Positions 12,072-46,715 of a DNA stretch of 64,000 nt are shown here, piece by piece; the first letter of the stretch is position 1; the number at the start of each line of letters is the position of its first letter. Where the stretch lies: assembly GCF_014841125.1 (NCBI RefSeq), contig NZ_JACYTQ010000002.1:806001-870000 (forward strand), read 5' to 3'. Origin of the DNA: Echinicola arenosa. Its GTDB lineage: Bacteria > Bacteroidota > Bacteroidia > Cytophagales > Cyclobacteriaceae. The translations under genes and the position numbers were made by a program. Under the pieces are notes generated by a model. It saw only the letters and a list, made by a program, of their open reading frames with translations. It was not told the origin of the DNA and did not search any database.

Positions 12072-12462
12072 ATACCATTCATTGTGCTATTTTTTATTAT
12101 CCAGAAAGAAAACCACACAAATTACCAACTAAGTAGATAGGGTTTACTGGAATAAAAACAAAAAAACCCTGTAGGTCTTTAGACCTAAATTTTATATATT
12201 TAGCAGATAATATTAAATTAATAAAATTAGGCCATTTGCTTATTTTGTGAAATTTTTGTTAATTTTCACTTAAAAATATAAGTTTATATTGGTTTATAAC
12301 AAGATTATAGCTGTTAGTTTAGCTGAGATAAAACTCAAAAAATCGATAGTTATAAAATTTAGAAATTGGCAATCCTCTGTTTTTTTGCTTGATTTGTGTT
12401 CTTGTCAGTTTTTCACTACCAAATATTTAAGAATAAAACTGGCGTTTATTGTCCTTTAGATT
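12072..12462. other. AT-rich regulatory region before the TetR-type gene
   Basis: 391 bp without a gene. It contains a loose AGGGTTT/AAACCCT inverted repeat near 12139-12170 and the perfect operator-like palindrome at 12172-12187. A TATATATTTA stretch follows at once, then a long AT-rich leader. The long untranslated stretch before the regulator would suit autoregulation. I see no RNA gene. Confidence 0.5.
12172..12187. promoter_or_regulatory. Putative TetR-family operator, site A
   Basis: TAGGTCTTTAGACCTA has perfect 7-bp arms around TT. It lies 275 bp upstream of the TetR-type regulator gene. The same element occurs at 25036, 34778 and 46404. The size and symmetry suit a TetR dimer, and the position suits autoregulation. 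The link to this regulator is inferred. Confidence 0.6.
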
Positions 12463-13122
12463 ATGGAAAAGAAGAAGAAAATATCCACAAAACAAAGAAT
12501 TTTAAATGAGGCCATAAGGCTCTATAATGAAAATGGTGCTCACAATATTACCAGTAGACACATTGCTGCCGAACTTGGTATCAGTCATGGCAATTTAGAT
12601 TATCATTACAATAACCGTGAGGCTATCCTTCTGGCTATTTATAAGCAGATGAGAGAGGAAATGACAAACTCTTATCAGGAAAAAAGTAATAATGGCAATT
12701 CTTCTTTTGATCATTTCCACCTTTTGCTGATGCACTTAGAAAGGTTCCAGATGAAATACCGCTTTTTTAACCTGGATGTTTTGGAAATGTCCAGATCGTA
12801 TCCCGAAGTCAGCAAATTATTGAAAGAGACAATAGAACTTCGGAAAGAGCAAATGTCAAAGGTGTTTAAAAGCTTTGTGAGTGATGGACTTTTGGAGGAC
12901 AAAAGTAATATTGCTTTAATCAGACTACAACATACCATCCGCATCATCATCACTTTTTGGCTCTCTCAGCGCGAAGTACTTCCAGGCTACAGGTTCAATG
13001 AAAAGGGAGAAATGACCAAACACATTTGGGACTTATTGATTCCATATATGACAGAAAAAGGCCTAGAGGAGTACAAGCATACCATTGAAAAATATAGCGA
13101 AGAGCTTGAAGAAATAGAGTAA
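12463..13122 (+). CDS. TetR/AcrR family transcriptional regulator
   Basis: A 219-residue regulator. Residues about 9-55 form the TetR DNA-binding domain: RILNEAIRLYNENGAHNITSRHIAAELGISHGNLDYHYNNREAIL, with the helix-turn-helix at ITSRHIAAELGISHGNLDYHY. The remaining helical part would bind ligand and dimerise, and resembles no specific characterised member I can name. It ends with a strong terminator. Neighbouring sulfatases and the shared palindrome suggest it controls sulfated-glycan genes. The effector is unknown. Confidence 0.88.
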   Translation: MEKKKKISTKQRILNEAIRLYNENGAHNITSRHIAAELGISHGNLDYHYNNREAILLAIYKQMREEMTNSYQEKSNNGNSSFDHFHLLLMHLERFQMKYRFFNLDVLEMSRSYPEVSKLLKETIELRKEQMSKVFKSFVSDGLLEDKSNIALIRLQHTIRIIITFWLSQREVLPGYRFNEKGEMTKHIWDLLIPYMTEKGLEEYKHTIEKYSEELEEIE

Positions 13123-13138
13123 TTTTCCATAACCATAG

Positions 13139-13178
13139 AAACAAAAGGGGCAAATGTATTTTGCTCCTTTTGTTTTTC
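13139..13178 (+). terminator. Intrinsic terminator after the TetR-type gene
   Basis: AACAAAAGGGGCAAA pairs with TTTGCTCCTTTTGTT (one G-T pair) across a short loop and ends in a T run. The A-rich left side could also act on the convergent minus-strand gene. Confidence 0.75.
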
Positions 13179-13201
13179 ATTATAATTACCGAATTATTAA
13201 T

Positions 13202-13684
13202 TTAGCCTTTATCTGCTTTTTGGTTCTTTTTAAGGAGTTTTAGTTTGGGCTGAATATACTTTTGACAAAAAGGAGCATCAGGCCGACTCTGGTAATAATT
13301 TAACAAATCAGCCGAATTTCGTCTAAATGATACAAAGGGTAAAATTTGGGTAATGATATTCCCAGACCAAAGTTGCTGCAAATCCTCCAAATTCTTTTGA
13401 ACTATTTCATGCTGTTCATGGCTGAACACGTAAATCGCTGATCGGTATTTTTCTCTCATACTATGTTCAGAAGTACAGCTATGCGTCAGTAAATGGGATT
13501 TTATTAATTGATGGAGAGAAATGATCTGGGGATCGAAATCCACCAAGACAGCTTCCGAAAAGCTACTGTACTTGCCCGACGATGCAATCCACCCTTGGTC
13601 AACATTTCCCACTCCCTCAATGGACTGAAACACCGCTTCTGTGCACCAATGGCATCCTCCACCAAATCCCATTTTCTCCATCAT
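13202..13684 (-). CDS. msrA: Peptide-methionine (S)-S-oxide reductase (MsrA-like)
   Basis: A 160-residue cytoplasmic enzyme repairing the S epimer of methionine sulfoxide. The active-site region is GGGCHWCTEAVFQSIEGV; the canonical motif is GCFWC/GCFWG, so Phe is replaced by His. GWIASSGKYSSFSEAVLVDFDP covers the next conserved block. The C-terminal APFCQKYIQPKL supplies a likely resolving Cys. The family's usual YRS block appears as REKYRSAIYV. It has no signal peptide. MsrB lies about 0.6 kb upstream on the same strand, separated by a pseudogene. The start could be one codon later. Confidence 0.82.
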   Translation of the reverse strand: MMEKMGFGGGCHWCTEAVFQSIEGVGNVDQGWIASSGKYSSFSEAVLVDFDPQIISLHQLIKSHLLTHSCTSEHSMREKYRSAIYVFSHEQHEIVQKNLEDLQQLWSGNIITQILPFVSFRRNSADLLNYYQSRPDAPFCQKYIQPKLKLLKKNQKADKG

Positions 13685-13703
13685 CGACTTGAAAACATTA
13701 TTC

Positions 13704-14260
13704 TTATTGATTGTTTCTTAACGGCCTTACCATGTTAAAGATCTGTCCCTCTGGATTCCTACAGACAAAATAAACATGGCTTGGCTGTCCATTTTGAATG
13801 AGGACTTGCGGCCTCTCCAACTTGGGCAAATTCACGTTTTCTCCATTTGAAAACTTAATATTTCGATTATAAGCAATCGGGTTTTCCGAGGTCTTCCACA
13901 CCAAGCCATCTTCTGAACTGGCTAAAAACTCAGCACCAGACTCACCTGTAATCGCCTCATTCATGCATTTGGCGAGCATATGATAAAATGGCCCCTCGGG
14001 CTTATCTGCTACAGCTAACACTATTTCGCTATTGGTTACCCAAGCGCTCATGCCAAGATGTTTGGGCCAGCTGCTGGCGAACATATAGTAAATACCATCT
14101 TCTCCTTTGATCACCGAACCGCCCCAAACGATTTAGCCTTCTATTTGAAACGCCCCTTCCTTGGGAGAAGGCTCCATTGATTATAGAATAGGTTGTTTTG
14201 AGCGAAAAGGGTAGTCTGACAGATCAAAAAGAAATAAACTATAAAACGAATACTTCTCAT
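13704..14260 (-). pseudogene. Decayed glycosidase gene (five-bladed propeller, GH43/GH117-like)
   Basis: A signal peptide (MRSIRFIVYFFLICQTTLFAQ) starts at 14260. The frame breaks at a CCC run (minus strand; 14163-14165), where one missing base would restore LLPKEGAFQIEG. A TAA then stands at 14133-14135 before IVWGGSVIKGEDGIYYMFAS, where the family has a coding residue. Further on, ADKPEGPFYH jumps directly to MLAKCMNEAITGES at about 13980, skipping the central propeller blades in frame. The end (KLERPQVLIQNGQPSHVYF) is intact. Three independent lesions mean no functional product. The family is recognised from conserved segments; the exact GH number is uncertain. Confidence 0.75.
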
Positions 14261-14301
14261 GAATGACTGGATAATAATGGCTTCATTAGAGTGGTTTTGA
14301 A

Positions 14302-15345
14302 TTACCCTACTTTTTTCAAAGATACCGCGTTCACACAATACCGCAAGCCACTGGGAGCTGGACCATCTGGAAATACGTGCCCCAAATGTGCATCACAGGT
14401 ATTGCAGGTGATCTCTACCCTGACCATGCCAAAGCTGGCATCCTTATGGTAGGCCACTGCATTTTCCTCCACTGGTTGTGTAAAAGATGGCCACCCAGTA
14501 CCGCTTTCAAATTTCTCCTCCGCGTCAAAAAGCAGGGTATCACAACAAGTGCAGGCATACTTCCCCGGCTCGAATAAGCTACACATCTCTGAACTGTGGG
14601 CTCGCTCTGTTCCCTTTAGCCTTGTAATTTGAAACTGTTCAGGGCTAAGAGTTGCTTTCCATTCTGCCTCACTCTTATCTACTCGCTTTGAGGGGATTGG
14701 ATTACCATGATTGGCAAATTGAATAATATTGTTCCAGTTAAGCATACTATTAATGTTTTTAAATCTCTGTGTTTTATCACCAAGGTTTTCATTCTCTCTG
14801 CTAACTAACCTTAAATCGCACCCTTCAGGTTCCGTTAATTCGCTTTGAGATGTAGGTTCATCGATTATCAGGACATTTCCACTTAGTATTTCATCAAGTT
14901 TGTAATCAAGTCGCATCAAGGCATTATTTGGATCGGAACCAAACATGCTATAGGCAACAAGACCATTGGCATCCACCAAAATCCAATGAGGGGTTCCACC
15001 AGCTTTAAAATCCAAAAAGGTGGTGTTTAAATTTTGATCTTTAAAATAGGGAAATCGAACAAAAAATTTCTCCCTCGCCTCCTCCAATTTACACATTGGT
15101 ATTTCATTGCCATCAAAAATAGAATGAACTCCAAGTACATTGATCTTTTCTCCTAACTCATATACTAATCTATTTGCAAAAGGAATGGCTCTTCCTTTAC
15201 AACCAGGACAGTTTAAGCTAAAGAAAAGCACTACTAAAGGTTGACCAATATAATCCTTTGGACTAGGAACGGCATCTCCAAAAATACTTTCTAGATGCCA
15301 TTCCGGAAGCTTTTCTCCCAATGTCAAACTATACAAATGATCCAT
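14302..15345 (-). CDS. msrB: Thioredoxin-like/MsrB fusion protein
   Basis: A 347-residue two-domain protein. Residues 1-157 form a redoxin (TlpA/AhpC-like) domain with FFSLNCPGC (Cys46, Cys49) and a cis-Pro region GGTPHWILVD. Residues about 200-347 are a methionine-R-sulfoxide reductase: zinc pairs CTCC and CNTC, SGTGWPSF, DAHLGHVFPDGP and catalytic RYCVNAVSL (Cys337). The redoxin half probably reduces its own MsrB half, as in PilB-type proteins. No signal peptide is seen, so it is likely cytoplasmic. An internal Met at MLNWNN near residue 201 marks where a separate msrB gene would start. Confidence 0.85.
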   Translation of the reverse strand: MDHLYSLTLGEKLPEWHLESIFGDAVPSPKDYIGQPLVVLFFSLNCPGCKGRAIPFANRLVYELGEKINVLGVHSIFDGNEIPMCKLEEAREKFFVRFPYFKDQNLNTTFLDFKAGGTPHWILVDANGLVAYSMFGSDPNNALMRLDYKLDEILSGNVLIIDEPTSQSELTEPEGCDLRLVSRENENLGDKTQRFKNINSMLNWNNIIQFANHGNPIPSKRVDKSEAEWKATLSPEQFQITRLKGTERAHSSEMCSLFEPGKYACTCCDTLLFDAEEKFESGTGWPSFTQPVEENAVAYHKDASFGMVRVEITCNTCDAHLGHVFPDGPAPSGLRYCVNAVSLKKVG

Positions 15346-15395
15346 TTCCTATTAAGCCCTATTATACAAATATTTTATTGAACAATATGCTCTTA

Positions 15396-16133
15396 TTATT
15401 TAGGCTGGTTATTCATAGATAAATAATTAGGCTCTTCCTTTTCATCAGAGAGCAACATTCTGTAATAAATATCAATGACTATAGGAAGTTTTTGGAACCA
15501 GGTGAACTCCTTTCCTGCTAAATTTTCAAGGTGTCTTTGGGCAATCATGACCGCATGAATATCCTCTAATTTGTATTTGACCTCAACATAGCGCATGAAG
15601 TCTTGATCCTTTTGTTTTGATTTAGCCATTGCATACATAAACAACCCCTCCTTATTGTACCTCAAAGTGGAGTCTGAAGGAACTTCCTCTGCATTGGAAG
15701 ATGTGAGTAAAAATTGGAATCTCTTATCATTCAAACTAAGTTCCATGGATTCTTCGGGATATTCAACAGGCATTAGCTGGTCTACAGGATAATTGGGGTA
15801 AGTAGCCTTTTCGGATTCATAGATATAAATATCCTTTCTCAGGCCACTGTCCTCCAGTTTTGCAACAAGTAAATCCCTGCCCCTTACTTGGCTTAGGTTA
15901 AGTGATCTTCGGTGTGAAACATCATTGAGAAATTGATAAGACTTTTCGGATGGACTGGTATTGACAGGATATCGTTGCAATAAAAATTGGTCAAATGAGG
16001 CGACTAGAGCATTTAAAGCTTCCATCTTTTCAGCTCCAAGCGCATTTGCAAAGTCCTCCATTTCCTGATGCTCTGAAGTGCAAGAAGCACCTAACCCTAT
16101 TATGCAAAACATTATTATGTAAAACTTTTTCAT
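15396..16133 (-). CDS. Hypothetical lipoprotein
   Basis: A 245-residue protein with lipobox GLGASC near residue 18, then a helical mature part of mixed charge. I do not recognise a domain. A repeated theme of basic-aromatic segments (QRYPVN, FTWFQKLPIVIDIYYRML) suggests a compact globular protein. It lies 50 bp upstream of the thioredoxin-MsrB gene on the same strand, so it may be cotranscribed with oxidative repair genes. The function is unknown. Confidence 0.6.
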   Translation of the reverse strand: MKKFYIIMFCIIGLGASCTSEHQEMEDFANALGAEKMEALNALVASFDQFLLQRYPVNTSPSEKSYQFLNDVSHRRSLNLSQVRGRDLLVAKLEDSGLRKDIYIYESEKATYPNYPVDQLMPVEYPEESMELSLNDKRFQFLLTSSNAEEVPSDSTLRYNKEGLFMYAMAKSKQKDQDFMRYVEVKYKLEDIHAVMIAQRHLENLAGKEFTWFQKLPIVIDIYYRMLLSDEKEEPNYLSMNNQPK

Positions 16134-16235
16134 ACGCCCCAGACTAAGATGAAAATGTATATTTCAATTACCCAATGACGGGTTTTCTTTAATATACGTA
16201 AAATAGTCATTTTCAGGCGTTAGTACCCCAGGAAA

Positions 16236-17102
16236 TTACTCCATTACTCTTGGAATCAATCCTCTCAATCCCATGTCCACCACAGCCTCTGCTTGTCCAT
16301 TTCCTACATCCCATAGCCCATTGCTGTTCTCGTCCACCCACTCAAAACTTTTGTTGATCGAAAGAGACATGCTGATAATTATATCTGTTGTCTCATTACC
16401 AGTAATTTCCAAGGGCATATCAAACTCGCCAGTGACCACACAAGAGCCTTGTGGAATAGGTGAAGTCTCAAACAAAGGATTGGGCACTGTAGTAGCTCCT
16501 TCAGGGCTTTGTCCTGTAACCACTCCTGCCAGTGTTTCCAATCCCCAATAACCTTGCTTTCTGTTAGCCTTTACTTCAACTTCCTCTGTTTTCAACAAAT
16601 ATTTATCGATGTACGTATTGAATCCCACAAAACTGGCAATGGTACCTGTAAACGGTTGGTCATTATAATAAAAGGTAACATCAAAATTCTGGTAAGACAA
16701 AGACATCCTCACCCATTCATAGGTACCAGACTGAATGGAATTTAATGGAATTTCCAAAAAAGTTTCTCCAGGAGCAACCAACTTGCTTTGGCTAAAATCA
16801 ATGGCCTTTTCCCCTCCTGCTTCAGTCTCTGCTGCATGGTAGAGAATTTCTCCCTCTCCCAAAAAAGTGTTGGCAGATGGAGCCAGTTCAAGATAATGAG
16901 CAGCAATTTGATGAAAAACTGGATTTTGCCCAGCATGCCCTGAGGTGACATCCACAGCTGTCCCAGCATTTCCCAATCTCACTTGTTCTGGATCTACTTC
17001 TATTTTTACAATCAACTTGGGATCATTTTTGGGATTCTCATCAGAAGATGTACAACCATTTACCAGATACAATAGCAAAATAAGGGAAAAGAGATTTTTC
17101 AT
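16236..17102 (-). CDS. Surface lipoprotein of unknown fold downstream of SusCD
   Basis: About 288 residues with lipobox LVNGC followed by TSSDE, an acidic stretch that in Bacteroidota can act as a surface-export signal. The mature protein is beta-rich (VTFYYNDQPFTGTIASFVGFNTYI) and contains DENSNGLWDVGNG, like a calcium-binding loop. I chose the MKNLF start; one four codons upstream is possible. It lies downstream of SusD past a terminator. Similar lipoproteins in such loci bind glycan or other ligands at the cell surface; this role is inferred from position only. Confidence 0.6.
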   Translation of the reverse strand: MKNLFSLILLLYLVNGCTSSDENPKNDPKLIVKIEVDPEQVRLGNAGTAVDVTSGHAGQNPVFHQIAAHYLELAPSANTFLGEGEILYHAAETEAGGEKAIDFSQSKLVAPGETFLEIPLNSIQSGTYEWVRMSLSYQNFDVTFYYNDQPFTGTIASFVGFNTYIDKYLLKTEEVEVKANRKQGYWGLETLAGVVTGQSPEGATTVPNPLFETSPIPQGSCVVTGEFDMPLEITGNETTDIIISMSLSINKSFEWVDENSNGLWDVGNGQAEAVVDMGLRGLIPRVME

Positions 17103-17195
17103 GTTTGCGGTCAAATGTGGTGTTAAAGTTCAGTTTTCGGGTATGAAGAATAAAATAGTGAAAATTAATGATAAATAGGTGCTTTGAATCAAAAC

Positions 17196-17225
17196 AAAAA
17201 AGGAGACCAATTTGGTCTCCTTTTC
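17196..17225 (-). terminator. Intrinsic terminator after the first SusCD pair
   Basis: AAAAGGAGACCAA (17198-17210) pairs with TTGGTCTCCTTTT (17212-17224). On the minus strand the hairpin is followed by TTTTTTGTTTT. It lies 25 bp past the SusD stop, so the next lipoprotein gene is read by leakage or its own promoter. Confidence 0.75.
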
Positions 17226-17248
17226 ATTTATCACTACAATTTCCAGTA

Positions 17249-25035: not shown

Positions 25036-25051
25036 TAGGTTAAAAGACCTA
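25036..25051. promoter_or_regulatory. Putative TetR-family operator, site D
   Basis: TAGGTTAAAAGACCTA keeps the outer TAGGT and GACCTA of the palindrome, with a degenerate centre. It lies 77 bp before the TPR lipoprotein start codon on the minus strand. It is the weakest of the four main sites. Confidence 0.45.
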
Positions 25052-26970: not shown

Positions 26971-29900
26971 TTAGAAACTAAGACTTAGCCCAAAGGAAAT
27001 TCTTCTGGACAATGGATAGAGCTTACCAGACTGGTCTCCCCCATTGCTAAAGCTTGCACTCCCAAGGTTATCTTGGCTAGGATCCAGCACTTCAGGATCA
27101 AAGTTCTCATTGAGCTTCGTAAAGGTCAAGAGGTTTTCTCCAGAAACATACACTCTCAAACCACCAATTTTAACTCGCTCCAGCATAGCAGAAGGTAAGG
27201 TATAACCTATAGTTAGATTTTTAAGTCTCAAGTAGCTGGCATCTTGCAGGTACCTAGTTTGTACTTGTGTGTTTCTGTTGGTTACTTGCCCTTGACTTGG
27301 ACGGAAGTAATAGGCATCCCTATTTTCTGGAAGGCCATCTGATCCGTCACTCCAAGTCTCATTATAGACATTATCCAAAACGATCACATTGCCATAGCCT
27401 CCTGTACTTCCAAACATCAAAGGACCATCCAACCAGAAATCTCTCTTACCAATTCCTTGGAAGAACATGCTTAAATCGAAATTCTTGTAATTCAAACCAC
27501 CTCTGATACCATATAAATACCTTGGAGAAGCATTACCAATGATCCTTCTATCTCCAGAATCATCCACTGTGCCAGCACCACCATTGATAAATCCATCATT
27601 GTTGAGATCTGCATAATGTACATCTCCTGGCGCAATCAGGTTACCACCACCAAGTTGGGCATGATCAGCCGCATTATCGATTTCCTCTTGGTTTTGGAAA
27701 ATTCCCACCGTTTCATATCCCCATATTTCTCCTAATGTTTGACCTACATAATAGCCGCCTGAGAAAGAATTTGTTGGATTTTCATAACGTGTAATTTCAC
27801 CTTTGGAGTCTGAAACTACTACATTCAAGTTATAGCTTAGCTCACTATTGATCTCATCATTCCATCCTACTGATGCTTCCCAACCTTTGACTCTTAGGTC
27901 AGCGGCATTTTTCTCAGGAGCATCGGCACCAAAAATCCCTGGTAAAGCCGCTCCTGCAACCAACATACCTTTTGTATCTCTTTGGAAGGCATCAAGGGTC
28001 ACATTCAATCTTCCTTGAAGGAAAATCATATCCAAACCAATATTGGTAGAACTTACTTTTTCCCATGTTCTATCCGAAGAAAGAGGATTTTGAGGACTTA
28101 AGCTTACCGGACGGCTTCCTCCCATAATCCAGTTGGTCTGAGGAACAGTAGTATATCCCACAAATGGATAATACGCTCCAGATACCTGATTACCCAATTG
28201 ACCATAAGAAGCACGTAGCTTTAAGAGGTTCAACCAAGTAAGGTCTTTCATAAATTCTTCATCGGTTATTCTCCACCCAGCCGAAACTGAAGGGAAGAAT
28301 CCAAAGCGATCATTTTTATTGAATCTAGAGGATCCGTCGTAACGACCATTGATTTCAAGTAAATATTTTCCTTGATAAGTATAGTTCATTCTTACGAAAC
28401 CACTTCTCAATGCCCAGTTATAAAAATCATCTGTAATGATTGGGTCTCCCAAAGTTGTAGATGAAGAAAGCACATCATCAGAAATCAGGTTGGTATTATA
28501 ACTCTGGTTAGAAGTGTATGTGGCCTTTTCTTGGTTAAAACCTACAGTAGCTTCTATGCTATGTCCACTACTCCAGTCTTTGGCATATTTTCCATAAATA
28601 TCAAAGGCGTAATAGTTATCCACAAAATTAGTACGCTCGATGTAGGAAGGTTCTGCTTCTGGAGAAACCGTAAGGTTGTTCCAAGGTTGGATAGAGTAAA
28701 ACTGTCTGTTATTTCTAACTCTTTGTCTAAACTTAGGATTAAAGGTGAAGTTAGAAAACACTTGGAAGTCTCCAAATTTCATTTCCACACCGGCCTTTGT
28801 ATTCAAATTGTAATTAACCAAATTGTTACGCCCACCATCTTCTATCGTCGCTACAGGATTCAATCTATGGAAAGTGGCATAATCTACTCCATCCAAATTA
28901 TAATAAGGAGTCCAAGTTGGTCTTGCTCTCCAAACTACGTGGAAAATAGAAGGTCCGAAACCTCCACCGGGAAGATTATGTACATCTTGCTCAGCTCTGG
29001 AAAAGTTGACCTGGAACTTAGTAGTCAACCATTTATTAAGATCTGAGCTAAGATTAGAATTGAAATTAAACCTTTCGTAAAAATCATTCCCTATTTTCAC
29101 TATTCCATCCTGACGCGCATAAGCTACAGAAGCACGGTAAGCAGAATTCTCAGATCCACCTGTTATGCTGAGGTTATGGTTGTGCCCAGGAGCGGCATTC
29201 GCAAAAACCAAATCCGCCCAGTCTGTATTGGCATGCTCATAGTAAGCTGTACCTGACGGCTTAAGGGTATAATCATCCGTAATAACCCCATCCACTCGGT
29301 CTTTAATTAAACCCAAATGCTCATCGTTAAAAACCCTAGCTCCATTAGTGCTGGATGTCATACTGTTCACAAACAATGCATAGCGATAAGAATCCGTCTT
29401 ATCCGGAAGAATGGTTGGTCTTGCGGCAAAGACATTTCCAGAATACTGGATCTGTGGCTTTGTGCTTTTGGATCCTTTCTTCGTAGTGATCAAAACTACC
29501 CCAAAAGCGGCTCTTGCCCCATAAATTGCTGCTGAAGCGGCATCTTTAAGTACAGTGACACTTTCGATGTCCTGCGGGTTGATATTATTAATATCCATCT
29601 GCGCACCATCAACCAAAACCAATGGTTCTCCTCCATTGATACTGGTAGCACCACGAATATTGAAGCTTGGGTTACTTCCTGGTGAACCACTGTTTGAAGC
29701 AATGTTCAATCCAGGCACTACTCCTTGAAGACCATCAGTCAAATTAGTAATTGGACGATTTTCAAGCACTTTGCTGTCTGTCATTCCAACTGCTCCAGTT
29801 AGGTTTCCTTTCTTCTGGGTACCATAACCCACCACAACTACTTCTTCCAAGTCACTTACGTCCTCTTCCAAAACCACATCAATTACAGATTGGTTGTTGA

Positions 29901-30604: not shown

Positions 30605-31681
30605 TTATTCATTGGCATTAAATTTTAAGGCTATTTTTTTACGGTCTATTTTATAACTGAAGCCCATGGTATAACCAAGGCTTTCCAACACATTTTCAAG
30701 TGAGGCATCTTTAAATTCTCCGGACACCTTTTCATCCTTTTTTGGCGAATTTTGAACAGTAATCTCTACCGCATACCATCGTTCCAAAAGCCTTTTCACT
30801 TCTGAAAACTTCATTTGATTAAAACTTAATACGCCATTTTTCCACCCATATGCCTCTTGGGGATTGAAAACACCTTTAGATAAAACATCCTTATCTAATT
30901 TCACTTCTTCTCCCGGAACCAAGTACAAATCTTCCTTTTCCCTATTTTCATTATAAACCCTTACTTTTCCTGTAGCAAGTTGCACACTTGTGGAAAACTC
31001 CTGATAGGCTTTAACATTAAAAGAAGTCCCTACCGCAACAGTGACCATATCTCCAGACTTAACAGTAAAAGGCAAAGCTGTATCATGTTTCACTTCAAAA
31101 AATGCCTCTCCCTTAAGTTGAAGTTCTCTATTATCCTTTCCGAAATTATCCTGATAGGTGATTTCACTTTCTGAATTCAAATAAACTATACTTCCATCTG
31201 GCAGATAAAGTTTGGACTTTTGCCCTTTTGGATTTGCTTTAACAATTACCGCAGCAGCTACCTCTATTTTTTCTTCACTATCCTTGTGGTTAATGGCCAA
31301 AAAAGTGATAGAAGCGAGTAACACAACCATCAATATTGCAGCAGTCCTGATCCAAAACTGATTCCAAATGGTTTGTTTCTTTTCTTTGGTAAAAAATCCT
31401 TTAGAGCTATCAGCCTCAATAGTATGCTCTATTTTTTTAAACAGGGAATACTGTTGAGCATCTTTCATTACCTTACCCTGATCGTTAATAGACAATAAAA
31501 TGACCCGGGCTTGTGCATAAAGCTGCCCATTGGTTTCATTTTCGTTAACCCAATTGATCCATTTCAAATTTTCTGCCGGCTCTCCATCAAGTACCCAGCT
31601 TTTAAAAGAATGGTCAAATAATAGGTCTTCTATTTTAGAATAAGATTTCATCATTTTGTCTATCTGACCTACAGAGAGCAA
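30605..31681 (-). CDS. FecR family anti-sigma factor
   Basis: A 358-residue inner-membrane protein. The N-terminal cytoplasmic part binds the sigma factor. One transmembrane helix lies near residues 108-127 (FWIRTAAILMVVLLASITFLAI). The periplasmic FecR domain follows (SKLYLPDGSIVYLNSESEITYQ, LKGEAFFEVKHD, VAVGTSFNVKAY), with a C-terminal DUF4974 domain (FSEVKRLLERWYAVEI, ENVLESLGYTMGFSYK). It relays the STN signal. The first Met is followed by alternative starts at residues 10 and 11. It is separated from its sigma gene by 787 bp, unusually far. Confidence 0.92.
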   Translation of the reverse strand: MLSVGQIDKMMKSYSKIEDLLFDHSFKSWVLDGEPAENLKWINWVNENETNGQLYAQARVILLSINDQGKVMKDAQQYSLFKKIEHTIEADSSKGFFTKEKKQTIWNQFWIRTAAILMVVLLASITFLAINHKDSEEKIEVAAAVIVKANPKGQKSKLYLPDGSIVYLNSESEITYQDNFGKDNRELQLKGEAFFEVKHDTALPFTVKSGDMVTVAVGTSFNVKAYQEFSTSVQLATGKVRVYNENREKEDLYLVPGEEVKLDKDVLSKGVFNPQEAYGWKNGVLSFNQMKFSEVKRLLERWYAVEITVQNSPKKDEKVSGEFKDASLENVLESLGYTMGFSYKIDRKKIALKFNANE

Positions 31682-31870
31682 AAGGCCTAAAATCTCATCG
31701 CCTTATTTTAAAAAAAATAACTTTTCTTTAATCGGATGTTAATCAACATTGAAAAAGGAATCTGCATATCCGCTATTTCACCAGTATACTTAACCCTTCA
31801 AAACATTCTCCCAAAAACAGCTCAGATCTCATAGAAATGATTGTCTAAACCTTTCTACTGCCCCTGCTAG

Positions 31871-31899
31871 GTCCGTGGAATCTCCGTTGCGGGACGGAC
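31871..31899. repeat. GC-rich stem-loop, possible REP-like element
   Basis: GTCCGT (31871-31876) pairs with ACGGAC (31894-31899), enclosing a smaller CCG/CGG hairpin. The base composition is strikingly GC-rich against its AT-rich surroundings. Only one copy is in the window, so a repeat family is inferred from structure alone. Confidence 0.35.
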
Positions 31900-31999
31900 A
31901 GGTAGTGGGAGTCAGGTTACTGGTGTCAAAATGGTCCATATTAATGAATGTAACATTTTTAACATTGACTCTTTAACTCATATTTAACCCCTAGTTAAG

Positions 32000-32032
32000 C
32001 CGTGTTTATCCCGTGTTTATCCCGTATTTCTC
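32000..32032. repeat. Three tandem 11-bp repeats
   Basis: Two exact copies of CCGTGTTTATC (32000-32010, 32011-32021) are followed by a diverged third copy, CCGTATTTCTC (32022-32032). One helical turn per repeat would put bound proteins on the same DNA face. They lie about 320 bp upstream of the FecR start. Confidence 0.6.
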
Positions 32033-32468
32033 TTATCAGTGATTCAAGCTTGTCTAAACCTTAAGTCCTGGAAAAACTTGGGTACATACCTTTCAATGTT
32101 TTGGTTATAAGTACCTTGGGAATCCTTCTATCCCTCATCGCGATAAGCCAATATTTTTCCAACTATTAAGGAGCTGAATGGCTGATTTGATTTTTCGAAT
32201 TGTTGGGGGGATCAGATAGCTCAGATAAGATTTTCTTTCTTGCAACATATTTCGAGGAACACAAAGGTTGCTATCCTACTTTGGTCAAATTGTAGCACCG
32301 GGCTTTAATAAATGCCTACTGAAGAACAGCTACATTCTAAATGCTTCAGTTCTATCTGGCAGTTAAACAGGCTTCCAACCACTTAAGCAAAGGATGTATG
32401 GTTACTGGCATTATTGCGGATAATCAGAAAAAGGAATCCTGGTTGAAGCTAACTGGCTTATGGCAGGC

Positions 32469-33065
32469 TTAAAAATTAAGCAATGCAAAGCAAAAAATAC
32501 TAATGGCAATCTTTCTGAAATCCAAACTATTCTTTAATGTTTTGATTCCTTTAAAAATTAAGTTATAAATCGACGGAACTTGCACGCCCATCAATTCTGA
32601 GATCTCCTCATAATCCAACTCCTCAAGTACCCTTAAATAGATTGCTTCTTTTTGTCTCAATGGTAAGTTTTCAAGTGCTTCATTGATCATTACAGCAGAT
32701 TCAGAAACAATATGATGTTTTTGAAGCAATTCCTCGAAAGACTCTTCCCAAAGAAATTTAGCATGGTACTCGTCAATCGATTCTCGTTTATATTGATGAT
32801 TGACCATTTTTATAATTTCCCTTCTGAAGGAGGAGAAAAGATAAAATTTAATGGACCTATGGATGCTTATTTTTTCCCTGACATTCCATATGTGCACAAA
32901 CACATCATGAATCGCATCTTGGATCAAATCCTCATCATGGGTAAACCCAAAACCATATTTAAACAGGTCTTTAGAATAAGCCTTATAAATCACCGCAAAG
33001 GCCTCCCTGTCCCCAGCAGAGATTCTATTCCAAGTCTGTATATCGTTTAGGCTATCTTTATTCAT
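32469..33065 (-). CDS. ECF sigma factor, FecI-like (sigma-70 family)
   Basis: A 198-residue sigma factor from the MNKDSLND start; a longer frame begins 17 codons upstream but those residues do not match the family. Region 2 is DREAFAVIYKAYSKDLFKYGFGFTHDEDLIQDAIHDVFVHIW. Region 4 is LPLRQKEAIYLRVLEELDYEEISELMGVQVPSIYNLIFKGIKTL. The C-terminus ends in a hydrophobic tail (IAISIFCFALLNF), often seen in FecI-like factors of this phylum. It should direct transcription of the FecR-SusC-SusD operon. Confidence 0.92.
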   Translation of the reverse strand: MNKDSLNDIQTWNRISAGDREAFAVIYKAYSKDLFKYGFGFTHDEDLIQDAIHDVFVHIWNVREKISIHRSIKFYLFSSFRREIIKMVNHQYKRESIDEYHAKFLWEESFEELLQKHHIVSESAVMINEALENLPLRQKEAIYLRVLEELDYEEISELMGVQVPSIYNLIFKGIKTLKNSLDFRKIAISIFCFALLNF

Positions 33066-33126
33066 GTATTCAATTAACAAAGTCCGTAGTAAAAACAAAC
33101 TTCTATTGATAAACAACTTTTAAATA

Positions 33127-33142
33127 TAGGTTTTCTGGCCTA
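33127..33142. promoter_or_regulatory. Weak match to the TAGGTCT palindrome, site E
   Basis: TAGGTTTTCTGGCCTA keeps the TAGG and CCTA ends and most outer bases, but the centre differs. It lies 62 bp before the ECF sigma start. A TAGG-N8-CCTA match of this kind could occur by chance about once in a window this size, so position is the main argument. Confidence 0.25.
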
Positions 33143-33291: not shown

Positions 33292-34767
33292 TTAATCTTC
33301 TTCCTTTATACCTTGTAATATCTTGGACAACTCGTCCACAATTTCTGGATGGGCAGCATATAAATTGTTACTTTCAGCCGGGTCATCTTTCATATTATAC
33401 AATTGACCTGGCGTTTCAATACCATATCCTTCTTTGTTTAGCCCATCACTGAATCCTCCGGATTTTTGGGACTGAATTAATTTCCAATCTCCTTTTCTTA
33501 TTGCAAAAACTCCTTGATGAGAATGATGTACCAAAAAGTTTCTTGCTGGCTCATTGGCATCCTTCAAGGTTGGCAACATGCTTTGTCCATCAGGAGAGCT
33601 ATTTTCCTTCTTTTCTATACCCACAATATCCCTCACTGTTGCCATAATATCCAATGATGAAACCAGACCTTTGGCAGAAGTGCCAGCCTCAATATGTGTA
33701 GGCCACTTTACAATAAAAGGCACCCTATGGCCTCCTTCCCAAGCATCTCCTTTATAACCTCGCCATGAGCCATTTGCATAGTGTCCATAATCCTTTATCA
33801 CAGAAGAAACTGGTCCGGAATAGTTTTCTCCATTACGAGCAGGAGAACCATTATCACTAGTAAATATAACAATTGTGTTTTCATCCAGGCCATTTCGCTT
33901 CAGCGCATCCATCACCTGTCCCACAGTCCAGTCCACTTCCTGCACAAAATCACCATATGCACCCGCTTGACTCGACCCCTTGAATTTAGCAGTAGGAGCA
34001 ATTGGAGTATGGGGTGCTGTCAAAGCAAAATACAAGAAAAATGGTTTATCAGTTTTTGCAGCACTTTCTATATATTCTACAGATTTTTGGGTGATGGTCG
34101 GCATAACATTTTCCAGTGTCCAACCTGGCGCCATGACACCTTTATGGCCAAACATATCATCAGGCTTTGATACACTTGGCATTTCTACTACTTTCTCATT
34201 TTCAATAAAGGTATAAGGTGGAAAATTGGGAACATCATCCCCAAAATAATAATCGAAACCAGCGGCCAAAGGACCTCCTTTGATAGGCTCGTTGTAGTTT
34301 ACTTCAGCTCCATTATTATCTTCTGCAGGCACAGTATCATGGGTAGACCAATTCCAACCCAAGTGCCATTTACCTATGGCGGCGGTCTGATACCCTACAG
34401 ACTTCAACATATCCGGAAGGGTCTCCCTATGTTCTTCGATAAGTGGAGCTTCCCAAGGCCATAGGACACTTTTTTTCAATCTGGTTCGCCAACTATACCT
34501 CCCTGTCAAAATACCATACCGAGTAGGCGTACATACTGAAGATGGTGTATGGGCATCTGTAAACCACATTCCATCTTTCGCCAGTTGATCTATGTAAGGA
34601 GTATTGACTTTTGCTTGATCATTGTAAGTTCCTACATCACCATAGCCTAGGTCATCCGCCAAGATCAAAACAATATTAGGAGGCTTATTATCTTCCTTTC
34701 GATTACAAGAAGTCATCAATGTCATAGTAAGCAAAAACAAGGCGAAGATCAATTGTTTGTAATTCAT
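33292..34767 (-). CDS. Lipoprotein sulfatase (S1 family), Cys-type
   Basis: A 491-residue arylsulfatase-like enzyme with a lipobox (MTSC, Cys21), so it is membrane anchored rather than soluble. It has metal-binding Asp38-Asp39 in LADDLGYGD, the maturation motif CTPTR (Cys79), GKWHLGW, TAPHTP and SDNGSP. Insertions such as KKSVLWPWEAPLIEEHRETLP are typical of a large S1 subfamily acting on sulfated glycans. A perfect copy of the TAGGTCT palindrome ends 10 bp upstream of the start codon, so expression is probably repressed by its binding protein. Confidence 0.93.
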   Translation of the reverse strand: MNYKQLIFALFLLTMTLMTSCNRKEDNKPPNIVLILADDLGYGDVGTYNDQAKVNTPYIDQLAKDGMWFTDAHTPSSVCTPTRYGILTGRYSWRTRLKKSVLWPWEAPLIEEHRETLPDMLKSVGYQTAAIGKWHLGWNWSTHDTVPAEDNNGAEVNYNEPIKGGPLAAGFDYYFGDDVPNFPPYTFIENEKVVEMPSVSKPDDMFGHKGVMAPGWTLENVMPTITQKSVEYIESAAKTDKPFFLYFALTAPHTPIAPTAKFKGSSQAGAYGDFVQEVDWTVGQVMDALKRNGLDENTIVIFTSDNGSPARNGENYSGPVSSVIKDYGHYANGSWRGYKGDAWEGGHRVPFIVKWPTHIEAGTSAKGLVSSLDIMATVRDIVGIEKKENSSPDGQSMLPTLKDANEPARNFLVHHSHQGVFAIRKGDWKLIQSQKSGGFSDGLNKEGYGIETPGQLYNMKDDPAESNNLYAAHPEIVDELSKILQGIKEED

Positions 34768-34777
34768 GGCTATTTTT

Positions 34778-34793
34778 TAGGTCTATAGACCTA
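34778..34793. promoter_or_regulatory. Putative TetR-family operator, site B
   Basis: TAGGTCTATAGACCTA is a perfect 16-bp palindrome in the leader of the sulfatase gene, 10 bp before its ATG on the minus strand. Bound protein here would block transcription or initiation directly. It is the best of the four sites. Confidence 0.65.
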
Positions 34794-41693: not shown

Positions 41694-41717
41694 TTAAAAG
41701 ACATTATGAAGACATCA

Positions 41718-41747
41718 AACTTCTGGGGTCAGCTCCGGAAGTTTTTT
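41718..41747 (+). terminator. Terminator or attenuator between receptor and PepSY genes
   Basis: AACTTCTGG (41718-41726) pairs with CCGGAAGTT (41735-41743), with one T-G pair, and is followed by a T run. It lies only 14 bp before the next start codon, so it probably reduces rather than fully blocks read-through. Confidence 0.65.
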
Positions 41748-41761
41748 GAGTTTAACCAGCA

Positions 41762-43087
41762 ATGAAAAATAAGCTACTTTGGAAAATACATAACTGGATC
41801 GGCCTCTATTCGGGAGTCGTCATCGTATTTCTCAGTATCACAGGCGCTGCTGCACTATTTAGACCAGAAATAGATCGCGTCTTAAATCCAGAATTGACCA
41901 AGGTAGTTCCTCAGGAAAAAAAAGCCTCCCTAACCAAGGTGGTAGAAGCTATTCTTTCAGAACACCCTGACAAATACCTATTCGAAATTGAGCTTCCTAA
42001 ACCCTATTTGGATACATGGAATATCCGACTTATGCCGAAGGAGAAAAAAGAGCTTTTTCCCATGATTTGGGAAGTCTTTGTCAATCCTTATACCGGAGAA
42101 ATACTAGGAGAAAGAAACTATTTTGAATCATTCAGTTATTTCCTAAGAAACATCCATGTGAGACTATACGAAGCAGCTTACGGAAGACAGATCGTTGGAT
42201 TGGCAGGACTTGCGCTTTTGATTTCCACCATTACTGGCTTTCTCATTTATGGCCAGTTTATGAAAAAAAGATCCTTTGGGGAAGTGAGAAAAAAGAACTT
42301 GAGGATCCAACAAGCCGACTTGCACAAATATATCGGTATCGCTGCACTTTTCTTTAACTTGATGATCAGCATCACAGGAGCTTGGCTGGGACTTCAAGTT
42401 TATCTGATGGACGCTTTTGACATGAATATCCCCAGCCAATATGTAAGAGAGAATAAACCTTTGAGCAAAGAGCAAGACACTGCTTTCGCTTTGGATTTTG
42501 ATAAAGCCTATTCCATTAGTAAATCTGCTTTTCCTGAAATGACCCCTTGGATCATCAGGCCCACCACAAATGGGGAAGGCTTAATTCATATATACGGTGA
42601 TATTTCAGGACAAACCTACGAAAGACGATCCAATAAACTGGTGTTGGATAAATTCAGTTATGCCACCCAACAAAAATACAATATCAGCGATCAAGGCTTT
42701 GGTGCAAAGCTATACTATGTGCAAGAAGCCTTTCACTTTGGAGACTTTGCAGGCCTTCCACTTAAAGTACTTTATTGCATTCTTGCCTTTTCATCTGGGT
42801 TTCTCTCATTAAGTGGGTTCATCATCTATCTTGAGCGCATCAAAAAGAAAAGAGAAAAAAAAGAAAACCAAACACCTTTAAAGCCCCTCTTGGTAAAATG
42901 GACTGTGGGTATGTTAGCTTTTATTGTAATTATTGCTGTCTTAAGCACAAATTTCGGGATTGGTGTACCATCCTTGTTGGTTACTATTAGTATCTATGGA
43001 TTTCTACTGTTCATGATTCTAAAAGGCCTATACAAATTAGTGAGGAAAAAGAACATGTCATCTCAGGCACAAAAAACTCCTGTATGA
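41762..43087 (+). CDS. PepSY-associated membrane protein (iron-uptake type)
   Basis: A 441-residue inner-membrane protein of the PepSY_TM family, with about four strong helices (GVVIVFLSITGAAALF, IVGLAGLALLISTITGFLIY, YIGIAALFFNLMISITGAWLGL, LSLSGFIIYL) and a conserved His in IHNW and HKYIG. Such proteins sit beside siderophore receptors and are thought to reduce ferric siderophores or handle the released iron. An extra C-terminal helix pair is present. It overlaps the next gene by 4 bp (ATGA). Confidence 0.86.
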   Translation: MKNKLLWKIHNWIGLYSGVVIVFLSITGAAALFRPEIDRVLNPELTKVVPQEKKASLTKVVEAILSEHPDKYLFEIELPKPYLDTWNIRLMPKEKKELFPMIWEVFVNPYTGEILGERNYFESFSYFLRNIHVRLYEAAYGRQIVGLAGLALLISTITGFLIYGQFMKKRSFGEVRKKNLRIQQADLHKYIGIAALFFNLMISITGAWLGLQVYLMDAFDMNIPSQYVRENKPLSKEQDTAFALDFDKAYSISKSAFPEMTPWIIRPTTNGEGLIHIYGDISGQTYERRSNKLVLDKFSYATQQKYNISDQGFGAKLYYVQEAFHFGDFAGLPLKVLYCILAFSSGFLSLSGFIIYLERIKKKREKKENQTPLKPLLVKWTVGMLAFIVIIAVLSTNFGIGVPSLLVTISIYGFLLFMILKGLYKLVRKKNMSSQAQKTPV

Positions 43088-43353
43088 AAAAACAGGTCGA
43101 TTCTGTAAACGAAAATTACTTGATCCCAGCACTATTGGCCTTTGGTCTGTTTGCTTTGGTAACTGCTGTTTATTTCTTTTCACAATGGTCAAACACTCCA
43201 TTAGAAATGAAAGAGCTCCCACATCTTCAAATGAACATGATCTGCTTTTCTATCCTTGCGCTACTCTGCTTTTACCTAACATTTCTTAAAAAGCGCTGGT
43301 TGAGCATTATAGGCTTAACCTTGGGCTTAGCTTACTGCTTTTTTTATCTCTAA
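43084..43353 (+). CDS. Small membrane protein of the iron-uptake operon
   Basis: An 89-residue protein with three hydrophobic helices (LIPALLAFGLFALVTAVYFF, MICFSILALLCFYLTFL, WLSIIGLTLGLAYCFFYL). Start and stop overlap with the PepSY gene as ATGA, so translation is coupled. I recognise no family. It probably forms a complex with the PepSY protein in the inner membrane. A strong hairpin follows immediately. Confidence 0.7.
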   Translation: MKKQVDSVNENYLIPALLAFGLFALVTAVYFFSQWSNTPLEMKELPHLQMNMICFSILALLCFYLTFLKKRWLSIIGLTLGLAYCFFYL

Positions 43354-43390
43354 ATAATAAATGCGAAGTCAATGACTGCGCATTTATTAT
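43354..43390. terminator. Bidirectional hairpin between convergent genes
   Basis: ATAATAAATGCG (43354-43365) pairs perfectly with CGCATTTATTAT (43379-43390), and AGTC/GACT extend it inward. The T tract is weak, but the position between convergent stops supports termination from both sides. Confidence 0.65.
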
Positions 43391-43413
43391 ATCTATTTAT
43401 CATTTCTCTTCAA

Positions 43414-44652
43414 TCAATAGTATTTCAAATCACTGCTCATACCTGGTTCTTGAGGAGTCTTATACCTTCCATCTACAATTTCGACTGGGTTGACAAAATA
43501 ATCCTTTAGGTGAGGTATGTGTTCCAATAACAGCGCTGGATGATCCATACTGATGTGATTGAACAAAACCAAATGTTGGTGAATCTGTCCCATATCCCCC
43601 ACATGAGGAACTACAGGCACATTGAACTTTTTAGATAATAAGCTGATCAAAATAAACTCTGATACACCACCCACCCTAACTGCATCAACCTGATTGAAAC
43701 TCATACAACCGGATTGGAGATAGTTTTTAAAGATGATTTTATTCGGGACATGTTCTCCCAACGCAATATCTACCGGTACCTCTTTAGCCAAGGTGACATG
43801 GGCCTGTACATCATCGGGATGTGTGGGCTCTTCTACCCAATATGGGTTTAGTGGGATTAACTCTTTACATATTTCAATAGCCTGAGGTAGATCCCACTGT
43901 TGGTTGGCATCAAACATAATGGTTGCTTTGTCTCCAGCAATTTCCCGTACCATCTTTGCCCTGCGAATATCTCTAGAGGCCTCTTTGCTGCCTACTTTCA
44001 GTTTCATGGCAGTAAAGCCCATATCCATGGCCTTTTTGATATTGGTAGCCACCTGATCATCCGTATAGTTAAACCAGCCGATTGAAGTATCATATCCAGG
44101 ATATCCTAATTCCAGGATCTTCATGCGTTCAACGGTTCCTAACTTTTTCGCATTAAGCAGTCTTATGGCCTCTTCTTTATTGAGTAAGTCCTCCACATAA
44201 GAAAAATCAAGGGTTCCCACCAACTCCTCTGGAGACAACTCAATCAAAAGCTGCCACAAAGGAACCCCCTTGGACTTAGCCCAAAGGTCATAACAAGCAT
44301 TTACTACAGCAGCCAAAGCAAGATGAACAACTCCTTTATGAGGGCCTAGCCAACGGAAATTGGGATCATCCATCATTTCTTTGTAGACCTTCCCAAATCC
44401 ATGCATCATTTCATTAATTTCCTTGCCAATCAAATGCTTGGAAAGATACGAAATGGCCTCTTTGACCAAATGGTTACCCTCTCCTAAAGTAAAGGCCAAA
44501 CCCACCCCTTCCAGGTCACCGTCCGTTTTCAATCGACAAACGGCATAGGCATAGGTTGGGTTAGTATGAACAGCATCTGAACCTGCTCCTCCTTTGAGAG
44601 GAAAGCGCACATCCTCAGCTATACCTTGCTTAATTACAACTGACTTATTCAT
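43414..44652 (-). CDS. L-fuconate dehydratase-type enolase superfamily enzyme
   Basis: A 412-residue mandelate racemase/enolase enzyme. All catalytic positions are present: Lys217-X-Lys219 in MKLKVG, metal ligands Asp248 (DANQQWD), Glu274 (WVEEPTHPDD) and Glu300 (GEHVPN), and His350 in VPHVGDMGQIHQHL. The numbering is nearly the same as in L-fuconate dehydratase, which makes 2-keto-3-deoxy-L-fuconate. The reaction fits breakdown of fucose from algal glycans. The symporter gene 49 bp upstream is probably in the same operon. Activity on related aldonates cannot be ruled out. Confidence 0.82.
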   Translation of the reverse strand: MNKSVVIKQGIAEDVRFPLKGGAGSDAVHTNPTYAYAVCRLKTDGDLEGVGLAFTLGEGNHLVKEAISYLSKHLIGKEINEMMHGFGKVYKEMMDDPNFRWLGPHKGVVHLALAAVVNACYDLWAKSKGVPLWQLLIELSPEELVGTLDFSYVEDLLNKEEAIRLLNAKKLGTVERMKILELGYPGYDTSIGWFNYTDDQVATNIKKAMDMGFTAMKLKVGSKEASRDIRRAKMVREIAGDKATIMFDANQQWDLPQAIEICKELIPLNPYWVEEPTHPDDVQAHVTLAKEVPVDIALGEHVPNKIIFKNYLQSGCMSFNQVDAVRVGGVSEFILISLLSKKFNVPVVPHVGDMGQIHQHLVLFNHISMDHPALLLEHIPHLKDYFVNPVEIVDGRYKTPQEPGMSSDLKYY

Positions 44653-44701
44653 CTAGAATTTATTTTACTTTGGTTACTTTTGACTAAATATGTACCATGT
44701 C

Positions 44702-46300
44702 CTAATAGAAAATGATATAGATAACAATCATCACCACTACCAGCAAAACACTGAGGTAATTGACCATTTTTGAAGAATGCTTGACATGGATATAAAATTG
44801 CTCCGGAATCTCCTGAGGCGACTTATCTAAATAGGATATAACGCTATACATGATGGAAGAAAACACAAAGAATAAATAGGTTTGTCTTAACCAGTTCAAA
44901 CCAAATCCATCAGTACTGGAAATATAATTTTCGATCCCGCGGATTGGGATATATTTTTCTACTATAAACACTACAGCAGCAAAAAGACTCCCTCCCAACA
45001 GGGTCCAAAACGCTGCATTTGCCGTCCCTTTTCTTGACACTACTCCCCAAAGAAATACAGTGACTATAGATGGAGCAAAAATGCTAAACATCTGATTGAT
45101 GAGTTCGAAAATGGCGCCCAAATTGCCCAAAAAGGGAGACCAAATAACCGCCATGACCAATACCAAAACTCCCGTGATTCTCCCGATTCTTAGCTTTGCT
45201 TGATCTGACAACTGAGGCTTCAGCTTTTCGAACACATCAAAGACAATTAATGTGGAGCAACTATTTAGAGCCGCCGCCACACTACTCATCACTGCTGCCA
45301 AAAGCGCTGCAATCATTAATCCTTTTAAACCAACCGGCAAAAGGTTAACAATCATGATAGGAAGTACATTCTTGGTTTCACTGCCTATTTCATCTTTGAA
45401 CAAAGCAAAAGCCAAAATCCCGGGAACAACCATGATGAAAACAGGTAGTATTTTCAGAAATCCCGCAAACAATGCCCCTAACTTTGCTTGTTTCTCAGAT
45501 TTTGCACCCAAAACACGCTGGACAATAGTTTGGTCTGTACACCAATACCAAATCCCCAATATCAAATGGCCTAACAGCATGTCCATAAACGTAAAGCCTG
45601 TTTTGGCACTGTTAAAACTTACTGCTTTTAAGCGATCAGGATCAACAGCCTCCTTCAAAGCCTCATAAGAATGGATTCCCACCTCTGGAAGCTGACATAT
45701 TGCCAATACTGTGATGGATAATGAACCTAAGATTAAAATGACGGTTTGGACGGTCTCTGTAATCACAACAGAAGTAAGCCCTCCTATAATGGTATAAATC
45801 CCCGTCGCTATAGCAATGATGACAATGGAAACCATTATATCCAGTCCGAAAATCTTTTCAAAAACCACCGCACCAGCATAGAAACTTACTCCAATGTGCA
45901 TAAACAAAGCAGCTAGTATGCTGAAAATAGCCAACACTACACGCGATCGGCTATCGTATCGCTGCTCCAAAAATTCAGGCAGTGTGGATATTTTGGTCCT
46001 TAGAAAAAACGGGACAAATACAAAAGCTAAAATGATCAACTCAAATGAAGAAAACCATTCAAAATTCCCCCACAAAATCCCATCCTTATAACCTGACTCC
46101 GCAAACCCAACCAAATGGACAGTGGAAATATTAGAAGCAAACAAGCTTGCCCCTATCACCCCCCAAGTCAATGACTTTCCAGCCAAAAAATAACCCGAGC
46201 TGCTATTCTTACTCTTCCTACCAAACCATAAACCGACCAGTACAACTAAAGCAATGTAGGCTATTGTGATGATGAGATCGATATAGGACAGTGTTTCCAT
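44702..46300 (-). CDS. Sodium:solute symporter (SSS family, SglT-like)
   Basis: A 532-residue inner-membrane transporter with about thirteen helices. Marks are GYFLAGKSLTWGVIGASLFASNISTVHLVGFAESGY, WCTDQTIVQRVLGAKSEKQAK and the sodium-binding region LAAVMSSVAAALNSCSTL. These match sugar:sodium symporters. It lies ahead of the fuconate dehydratase gene on the same strand, so fucose or a related sugar is the likely cargo. The site C palindrome is 104 bp upstream. Confidence 0.9.
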   Translation of the reverse strand: METLSYIDLIITIAYIALVVLVGLWFGRKSKNSSSGYFLAGKSLTWGVIGASLFASNISTVHLVGFAESGYKDGILWGNFEWFSSFELIILAFVFVPFFLRTKISTLPEFLEQRYDSRSRVVLAIFSILAALFMHIGVSFYAGAVVFEKIFGLDIMVSIVIIAIATGIYTIIGGLTSVVITETVQTVILILGSLSITVLAICQLPEVGIHSYEALKEAVDPDRLKAVSFNSAKTGFTFMDMLLGHLILGIWYWCTDQTIVQRVLGAKSEKQAKLGALFAGFLKILPVFIMVVPGILAFALFKDEIGSETKNVLPIMIVNLLPVGLKGLMIAALLAAVMSSVAAALNSCSTLIVFDVFEKLKPQLSDQAKLRIGRITGVLVLVMAVIWSPFLGNLGAIFELINQMFSIFAPSIVTVFLWGVVSRKGTANAAFWTLLGGSLFAAVVFIVEKYIPIRGIENYISSTDGFGLNWLRQTYLFFVFSSIMYSVISYLDKSPQEIPEQFYIHVKHSSKMVNYLSVLLVVVMIVIYIIFY

Positions 46301-46715
46301 CGGGTGTTATTTCAGGCTTGTTGGCTTAATCTTGTTAATCAATTTCCTTCAGACCATGCCTGGCACTAATAGACTATCTTAAGGTTGACCAATATACATA
46401 TACTAGGCCTAAAGACCTAATTTATATTTGATTTTCTCCAATTTCCTTTCCTGATCCAAAGAACATGAGATGGGAAATAAAGAAACGAAACAAAAAAATT
46501 ATTAAAATCGAAAATCTTTTTCAATTGACATATTCACAATAATTATATCATTTTTTACTGTTCGTAAACAAACTAAATCGTTTAATCTGAGAATATGTTT
46601 AAAAAAAGCAAAAATTACATAACCCTATCCATATTGATTATGTAGATACAAAATTTTCATTTTATTGGTTTCTTCCCTATTATTACTCCTGACTAACCTT
46701 TAAAACAAAATTATT
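46301..46715. other. Divergent regulatory region, symporter / metalloprotease-like gene
   Basis: 415 bp without a gene. It contains the palindrome at 46404-46419, with TATATTGG, a near -7 element, just downstream of it on the minus strand; the palindrome would thus overlap the promoter. The half nearer the plus-strand gene is very AT-rich with no clear element. Confidence 0.5.
46404..46419. promoter_or_regulatory. Putative TetR-family operator, site C
   Basis: TAGGCCTAAAGACCTA matches the palindrome with one base broken between the arms. It lies 104 bp before the symporter start, next to a -7-like TATATTGG on the minus strand, the place a repressor would occupy. Confidence 0.55.

Follow-up and report, generated by a model that had tools for sequence, protein, structure and literature searches.

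The usual explanations of how Bacteroidota regulate glycan use invoke hybrid two-component systems, SusR, extracytoplasmic function (ECF) sigma factors and regulators of the GntR and LacI types, and a sugar-related role is known for the TetR-type proteins UidR and GusR, regulators of glucuronide use. The fucose regulator closest to our case is FucR (BT1272) of Bacteroides thetaiotaomicron, presented in PMC3878776 as a GntR-family protein that serves as local transcription factor for the use of fucose. Fucose loci, with Algoriphagus marincola among the organisms, and predicted FucR sites are reported in a study of mat bacteria whose main text does not contain the word TetR (PMC5507952). Here we analyze a stretch of 64,000 nt (further called the window) of the 5.39-Mb genome of Echinicola arenosa (G000), with a gene of a TetR-type regulator, P0001 (12463..13122, forward strand, 219 aa), and a set of 16-bp palindromes located upstream of several genes. 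With a probability of about 0.83 we propose, from sequence comparisons, that P0001 represses catabolism of fucose and sulfated fucan through palindromes sharing one core, TAGnnC-N4-GnnCTA, at the promoters of a sulfatase gene and of a symporter/dehydratase gene pair, and that a fucose-derived metabolite would release it.

The preliminary description of this DNA had named four palindromes, at 12172, 25036, 34778 and 46404; a direct check of coordinates confirmed all four, each lying between main genes. The distance from palindrome to start codon is 10 bp for the sulfatase gene (this short gap was borne out as well), 76 bp for a gene of a tetratricopeptide repeat (TPR) lipoprotein, 103 bp for the symporter gene and 275 bp for tetR. 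If up to three mismatches are permitted, the pattern TAGGTCTNNAGACCTA has 9 matches in the window against 2.0 expected, and none of 100 shuffled sequences reached 9. The core given above emerges from comparison with relatives; its sole matches in the window are the sites at 12172, 34778 and 46404.

The symporter gene (44702..46300, reverse strand; sodium:solute symporter, SSF, PF00474 with E-value 9e-75) is preceded by the putative operator TAGGCCTAAAGACCTA (46404..46419); the gene of an enolase-superfamily enzyme resembling L-fuconate dehydratase (43414..44652) follows it on that strand after a gap of 49 bp. Best matches of this enzyme in PDB are 4a35 (E-value 1.2e-108) and the L-fuconate dehydratase 2hne/1yey (2.4e-99), which makes mitochondrial enolase superfamily member 1 and L-fuconate dehydratase its nearest relatives; no NCBIfam model scored above its cut-off. 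The core was found within 300 bp of the symporter start in all 14 promoters compared (six from Echinicola, the window's included, two from the genus Lunatimonas and six from genus g88), at 94-186 bp ahead of the start codon; the runner-up among 256 equivalent patterns was found in 3 of the 14. The near-identical G007, excluded from this count, carries the site as well. In three Echinicola genomes the symporter gene is far from tetR (62 kb in G009, 313 kb in G005, 543 kb in G003) and the site is still present; thus, the site follows its target gene. In relatives the symporter is found near tetR, fucosidase and dehydratase genes, and its substrate is likely to be fucose or a fuco-oligosaccharide.

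The second gene with a site kept in relatives encodes a sulfatase (33292..34767, reverse strand; PF00884), for which the best match of known structure is an S1_15 sulfatase (PDB 9bau, E-value 8.9e-79). Its putative operator, TAGGTCTATAGACCTA, occupies positions 34778..34793, and the core is present in the sulfatase promoters of five of seven Echinicola genomes, with the window and G007 counted. The palindromes are thus kept before orthologues in related marine bacteria in both cases, the window's own sites being included in the 14/14 and the 5/7. The sequence TATATTTA, which we take to resemble the −7 box of Bacteroidota promoters, directly adjoins the operator of the sulfatase gene in G000, G007 and G001. 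Between this gene and another sulfatase gene upstream there is a hairpin of the terminator kind (34867-34842), which fits a promoter of the sulfatase's own. A sigma-70 scan, which does not cover Bacteroidota promoters, gave promoter-like sites no more numerous than in shuffled sequences.

Since the sulfatase operator abuts a promoter-like box, binding at this place would block transcription; a dimer of P0001 sitting there is expected to prevent its initiation. One could imagine the same protein and sites at work in the opposite sense, with P0001 acting as an activator or together with another factor, and the location of symporter sites 94-186 bp from the start codon would suit such a role. However, the position of the sulfatase operator, 10 bp from the start codon and next to TATATTTA, suits blocking, and TetR-type proteins are mostly repressors; activation, or action with another factor, seems to us very unlikely.

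P0001 itself has the domains and the predicted fold of its family. Its scores are above Pfam cut-offs for both the helix-turn-helix domain TetR_N (PF00440, 34.8 bits with cut-off 24) and PF13972 (85.3 bits with cut-off 25); at E-value 1e-5 these are its only matches, with no GntR domain, and no other protein of the genome matches PF13972 at E-value 0.001. No other TetR-type gene was met in a Pfam scan of 30 of the 75 listed frames of at least 100 aa, in agreement with the earlier statement that it is the sole such gene in the window. The AlphaFold model (predicted local distance difference test score, pLDDT, 91.1) has ten helices; the one at residues 42-48 is presumably the recognition helix, according to TetR convention. 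The nearest solved folds are the TetR proteins 3nnr and 3rh2 (Foldseek E-values 5e-9 and 7e-9, 21-23% identity), and UidR (6ayi) matches with E-value 2.5e-7.

The link between this protein and the palindromes, which the preliminary description had offered as an inference, gains support from homologous loci. We scanned genome contigs with a TetR alignment and used the best 80 of 127 relatives; the 80 tetR loci include near-duplicates and some genomes from the Echinicola comparison. Thirty-five of them (two sharing one upstream end) have, at most 150 bp ahead of the start of tetR, a palindrome with the core TAGnnC-N4-GnnCTA and at least five of six arm pairs; in 200 dinucleotide shuffles the mean was 0.02 and the maximum 1, and the next best of 256 patterns appeared before tetR starts in 5 of the 80 loci. 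If only the core is required and the rest of the arms ignored, 40 of the 80 qualify. In 43 of the closest loci (L079-L118, L120, L122 and L124; close species are among them) 38 occurrences of the core lie between genes and two inside them, though intergenic DNA makes up just 119 of 850 kb; this ratio is the highest among the 256 patterns. Examples are found before genes of the symporter (L084, L091, L106), SusC (L084, L095, L120), a fucosidase (L122) and a distant sulfatase (L101, 27% identity), as well as before tetR genes (L106, L114, L122). Fourteen of the 80, distant tetR loci within L123-L158 (Flectobacillus, Spirosoma, Phaeodactylibacter, Kapaibacterium, Kordia and others), have two TAGnnC palindromes ahead of the tetR start, 25-46 bp apart.

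The operators also appear to vary with the recognition helix. Among the 59 loci with any site (40 autoregulatory and 19 with a site elsewhere in the locus; the other 21 of the 80 have none), mutual information between residue 46 and the variable dinucleotide was, with kinship ignored, 1.46 bits (500 shuffles: mean 0.63, maximum 0.86); it was 0.41 bits for residue 40 (shuffled maximum 0.39) and 0.17 bits for residue 42 (maximum 0.27). Cysteine at residue 46 goes mostly with AA or TA, threonine with TA, glutamate with GG, aspartate with TG, GG or GT, and alanine with TC (one locus); pairs found with glutamine vary. A broader scheme is conceivable, though we give it somewhat less than even odds: a PF13972 group of TetR proteins across Bacteroidota and some other phyla would share the operator TAG-NN-C-N4-G-NN-CTA, with residue 46 largely setting NN, and the Echinicola/Cyclobacterium branch would have been recruited as a fucose/fucan repressor, its few operators following their targets across the genome. 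Should such a residue-46 code prove right, sequence would allow prediction of the operators of many TetR proteins not yet characterised.

These observations bear on the question of whether the palindromes could be operators of another regulator, such as a GntR-type FucR, with tetR a mere bystander. The fucose regulator described for Bacteroides in PMC3878776 is indeed the GntR-type FucR, and within the genus the symporter is often distant from tetR. Nevertheless, like palindromes stand right before the start of tetR itself in the 35 homologous loci and vary with the recognition helix; also, in 245 genomes of the family, where the dehydratase was found in 21 (E-values up to 1e-130) and tetR in 25 (E-values up to 1e-50), all 21 dehydratase genomes have tetR, the four with tetR and no dehydratase being G004, G010, G205 and G252. 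We consider a foreign regulator quite unlikely; the palindromes before the sulfatase and symporter genes are, as far as these comparisons can tell, very probably landing sites of the nearby TetR-type protein.

Several observations weigh against repression by P0001 through these sites. The core is missing in the sulfatase promoters of G003 (which has a near-match, TAGTCCAAAAGGACCA), G005 and the more distant G026 (58% identity). Ten of 11 symporter homologues with identity of 52% or less have no site within 500 bp (G026 has one); in four of these ten (G015, G019, G121, G161) a palindrome precedes, instead, a tetR gene upstream of the symporter. No palindrome was found within 150 bp in 45 of the 80 tetR loci, and these are mostly close relatives: by homologue rank the palindrome is present in 9 of the first 48 loci and in 26 of the last 32, so it is commoner among distant homologues than among close ones. 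Covariation at residue 46 is only a lead, because relatedness was left uncorrected. Across the 11 Echinicola genomes, tetR was found in ten and the symporter in seven, all with tetR; G004, G006 and G010 have tetR and, at the thresholds used, neither the symporter nor the sulfatase, and in G002 none of the three was found at these thresholds.

Furthermore, genome-wide enrichment of the motif is absent: at two mismatches it has 24 places and the reversed control 30; at one mismatch the control outnumbers it in each of the 11 Echinicola genomes (18 versus 12 in G000), the control pattern differing from the motif in its dinucleotide make-up. We conclude that the regulon would be small and the motif not a global one, and the argument was therefore built on position and conservation. 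With at most one mismatch, TAGGTCNNNNGACCTA occurs at 12 places in the 5.39 Mb, four of them inside the 34 kb of 12172-46419; the binomial probability of such clustering, 8e-7, is overstated because the interval ends were picked from the sites themselves. None of the remaining eight copies is claimed as a target. Five of these were inspected; one precedes a gene of an IS110-type transposase and two fall inside frames, of 92 and 395 aa. The other two of the five are AAGGTCTAAAGACCTA (L040:8633-8648), 20 bp ahead of a gene with NHL repeats in a SusCD cluster that also encodes a PSCyt protein, and TAGGTCGACAGACCTA (L041:9914-9929), possibly there by chance, 370 bp ahead of a gene of a sodium:sulfate symporter at another place in the genome.

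The lack of enrichment at two mismatches, together with the terminator-like character of the site at 12172, would be in line with palindromes arising by chance or as structural elements, e.g. terminators. Yet the sites at 34778, 46404 and 25036 are not terminator-like, site positions are kept before orthologues though the flanking DNA has diverged, cores in the 43 loci are nearly all intergenic and like palindromes precede tetR starts; a chance or structural origin of the whole set is hardly credible.

For the site at 12172 alone, TAGGTCTTTAGACCTA (12172..12187), a structural role is a live option, and this site weakens the case as well. It scores terminator-like on both strands and is followed by a T run; it may, therefore, be the terminator of the sulfatase gene that lies before it (10764-12071). 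(The scan around it gave 10 terminator-like hairpins, equal to the shuffle mean of 10.6.) It ends 275 bp before tetR, and so does not fall within the 150 bp found for the 35 homologous loci. Within the genus a palindrome before tetR is clear only in G000 and in G007 (97%-identical TetR), which carries TAGGTCTTAAGTCCTA at the equivalent position; among the other eight Echinicola tetR loci, four (G010, G006, G003, G004) have loose matches 331-902 bp upstream and four (G001, G005, G008, G009) have no upstream match. With the palindrome clear in two genomes only and the terminator-like score, autoregulation is weak here: TetR may control its own gene through 12172 in this genome, but we propose it with little confidence. 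On the other side of tetR, at 13202-14114 of the window, there are frames of 160 and 136 aa where G007 has frames of 114 and 358 aa; a frameshift or decay is possible.

The fourth palindrome, TAGGTTAAAAGACCTA (25036..25051), preceding the TPR gene, is a doubtful site and was left out of the regulon count. It does not conform to TAGnnC-N4-GnnCTA, and in G007, the closest relative, the DNA ahead of the TPR orthologue has no match with up to two mismatches; so the TPR lipoprotein, suggested earlier as a target, was dropped. The site also falls in a mechanically derived 140-aa frame with TTG start on the opposite strand, and nothing supports this frame. Of the four-member regulon initially put forward, then, the symporter and sulfatase sites are retained, the tetR site is weak and the TPR site is left out as unsupported.

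The sulfated-glycan theme of the preliminary description was kept and narrowed to fucose and sulfated fucan by the dehydratase-like enzyme and by fucosidases in relatives. GH29 alpha-L-fucosidases are present in all three of the relatives' tetR loci that were partly scanned (L085, L106, L122), GH95 enzymes in two of them; Gfo/Idh/MocA-type dehydrogenases occur in the three loci, with symporter, dehydratase and sulfatase genes alongside.

In the window, genes of SusCD proteins are preceded by genes of FecR and an ECF-type sigma factor (30605-33116); no match to the TAGnnC core was found before the ECF sigma/FecR genes in the window. A degenerate site, TAGGTTTTCTGGCCTA (33127-33142), is located just before the ECF sigma frame and is also present in G007 (L060:12773); it could place the SusCD operon under indirect TetR control. 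In Flexithrix and Algoriphagus loci (L084:4708-4870, L095:4852-4867, L120:4812-4859) palindromes of the TetR type stand directly before the orthologue (66-69% identity) of the SusC gene at 26971; in the window, unlike in these genomes, this gene follows the ECF sigma/FecR pair, a likely swap of regulators. Also, an exact palindrome, TAGGTCATATGACCTA, is found in G001 (L066:9807-9822), 18 bp before a gene of 413 aa with no Pfam match, beside orthologues of SusCD 26971/25303.

Taken together, P0001 would be a one-component repressor whose dimer binds a 16-bp palindrome, here mostly TAGGTC-N4-GACCTA, with operators at the sulfatase gene (34767), at the symporter/dehydratase-like pair (46300) and possibly upstream of tetR. 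L-fuconate, its keto-deoxy product or a fuco-oligosaccharide could be the inducer releasing it. Sequence shows the sites themselves, their recurrence before orthologues, palindromes of this type before distant tetR genes, and the linkage to genes of fucosidase, symporter and dehydratase; from it we infer that P0001 binds the sites and represses its targets instead of activating them, as well as what the inducer and the natural glycan would be. The candidate operators can be tested directly. The locus points to a one-component switch of the TetR type for sulfated glycans rich in fucose, compounds of importance in marine carbon turnover.

How does P0001 compare with described regulators? Like FucR, it would govern fucose use, and in the same phylum; in contrast, FucR is of the GntR type and, as described in PMC3878776, its regulon is a single operon of a transporter and cytoplasmic enzymes. 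ECF sigma/FecR control of SusCD is present in the same locus and concerns glycan uptake; it belongs to a different class of proteins. UidR and GusR are TetR-type regulators as P0001 is, but distant in sequence. The solved 3nnr and 3rh2, one-component repressors of the TetR/AcrR group, share with P0001 the helix-turn-helix and the helical ligand domain, at 21-23% identity, and their titles give no function. In open-licence literature, judged mostly from search listings, no regulator of the TetR type was found for fucose or sulfatase genes of Bacteroidota. By this comparison P0001, with an operator type for which we found no description, appears to be a conventionally built TetR repressor whose role is unexpected.

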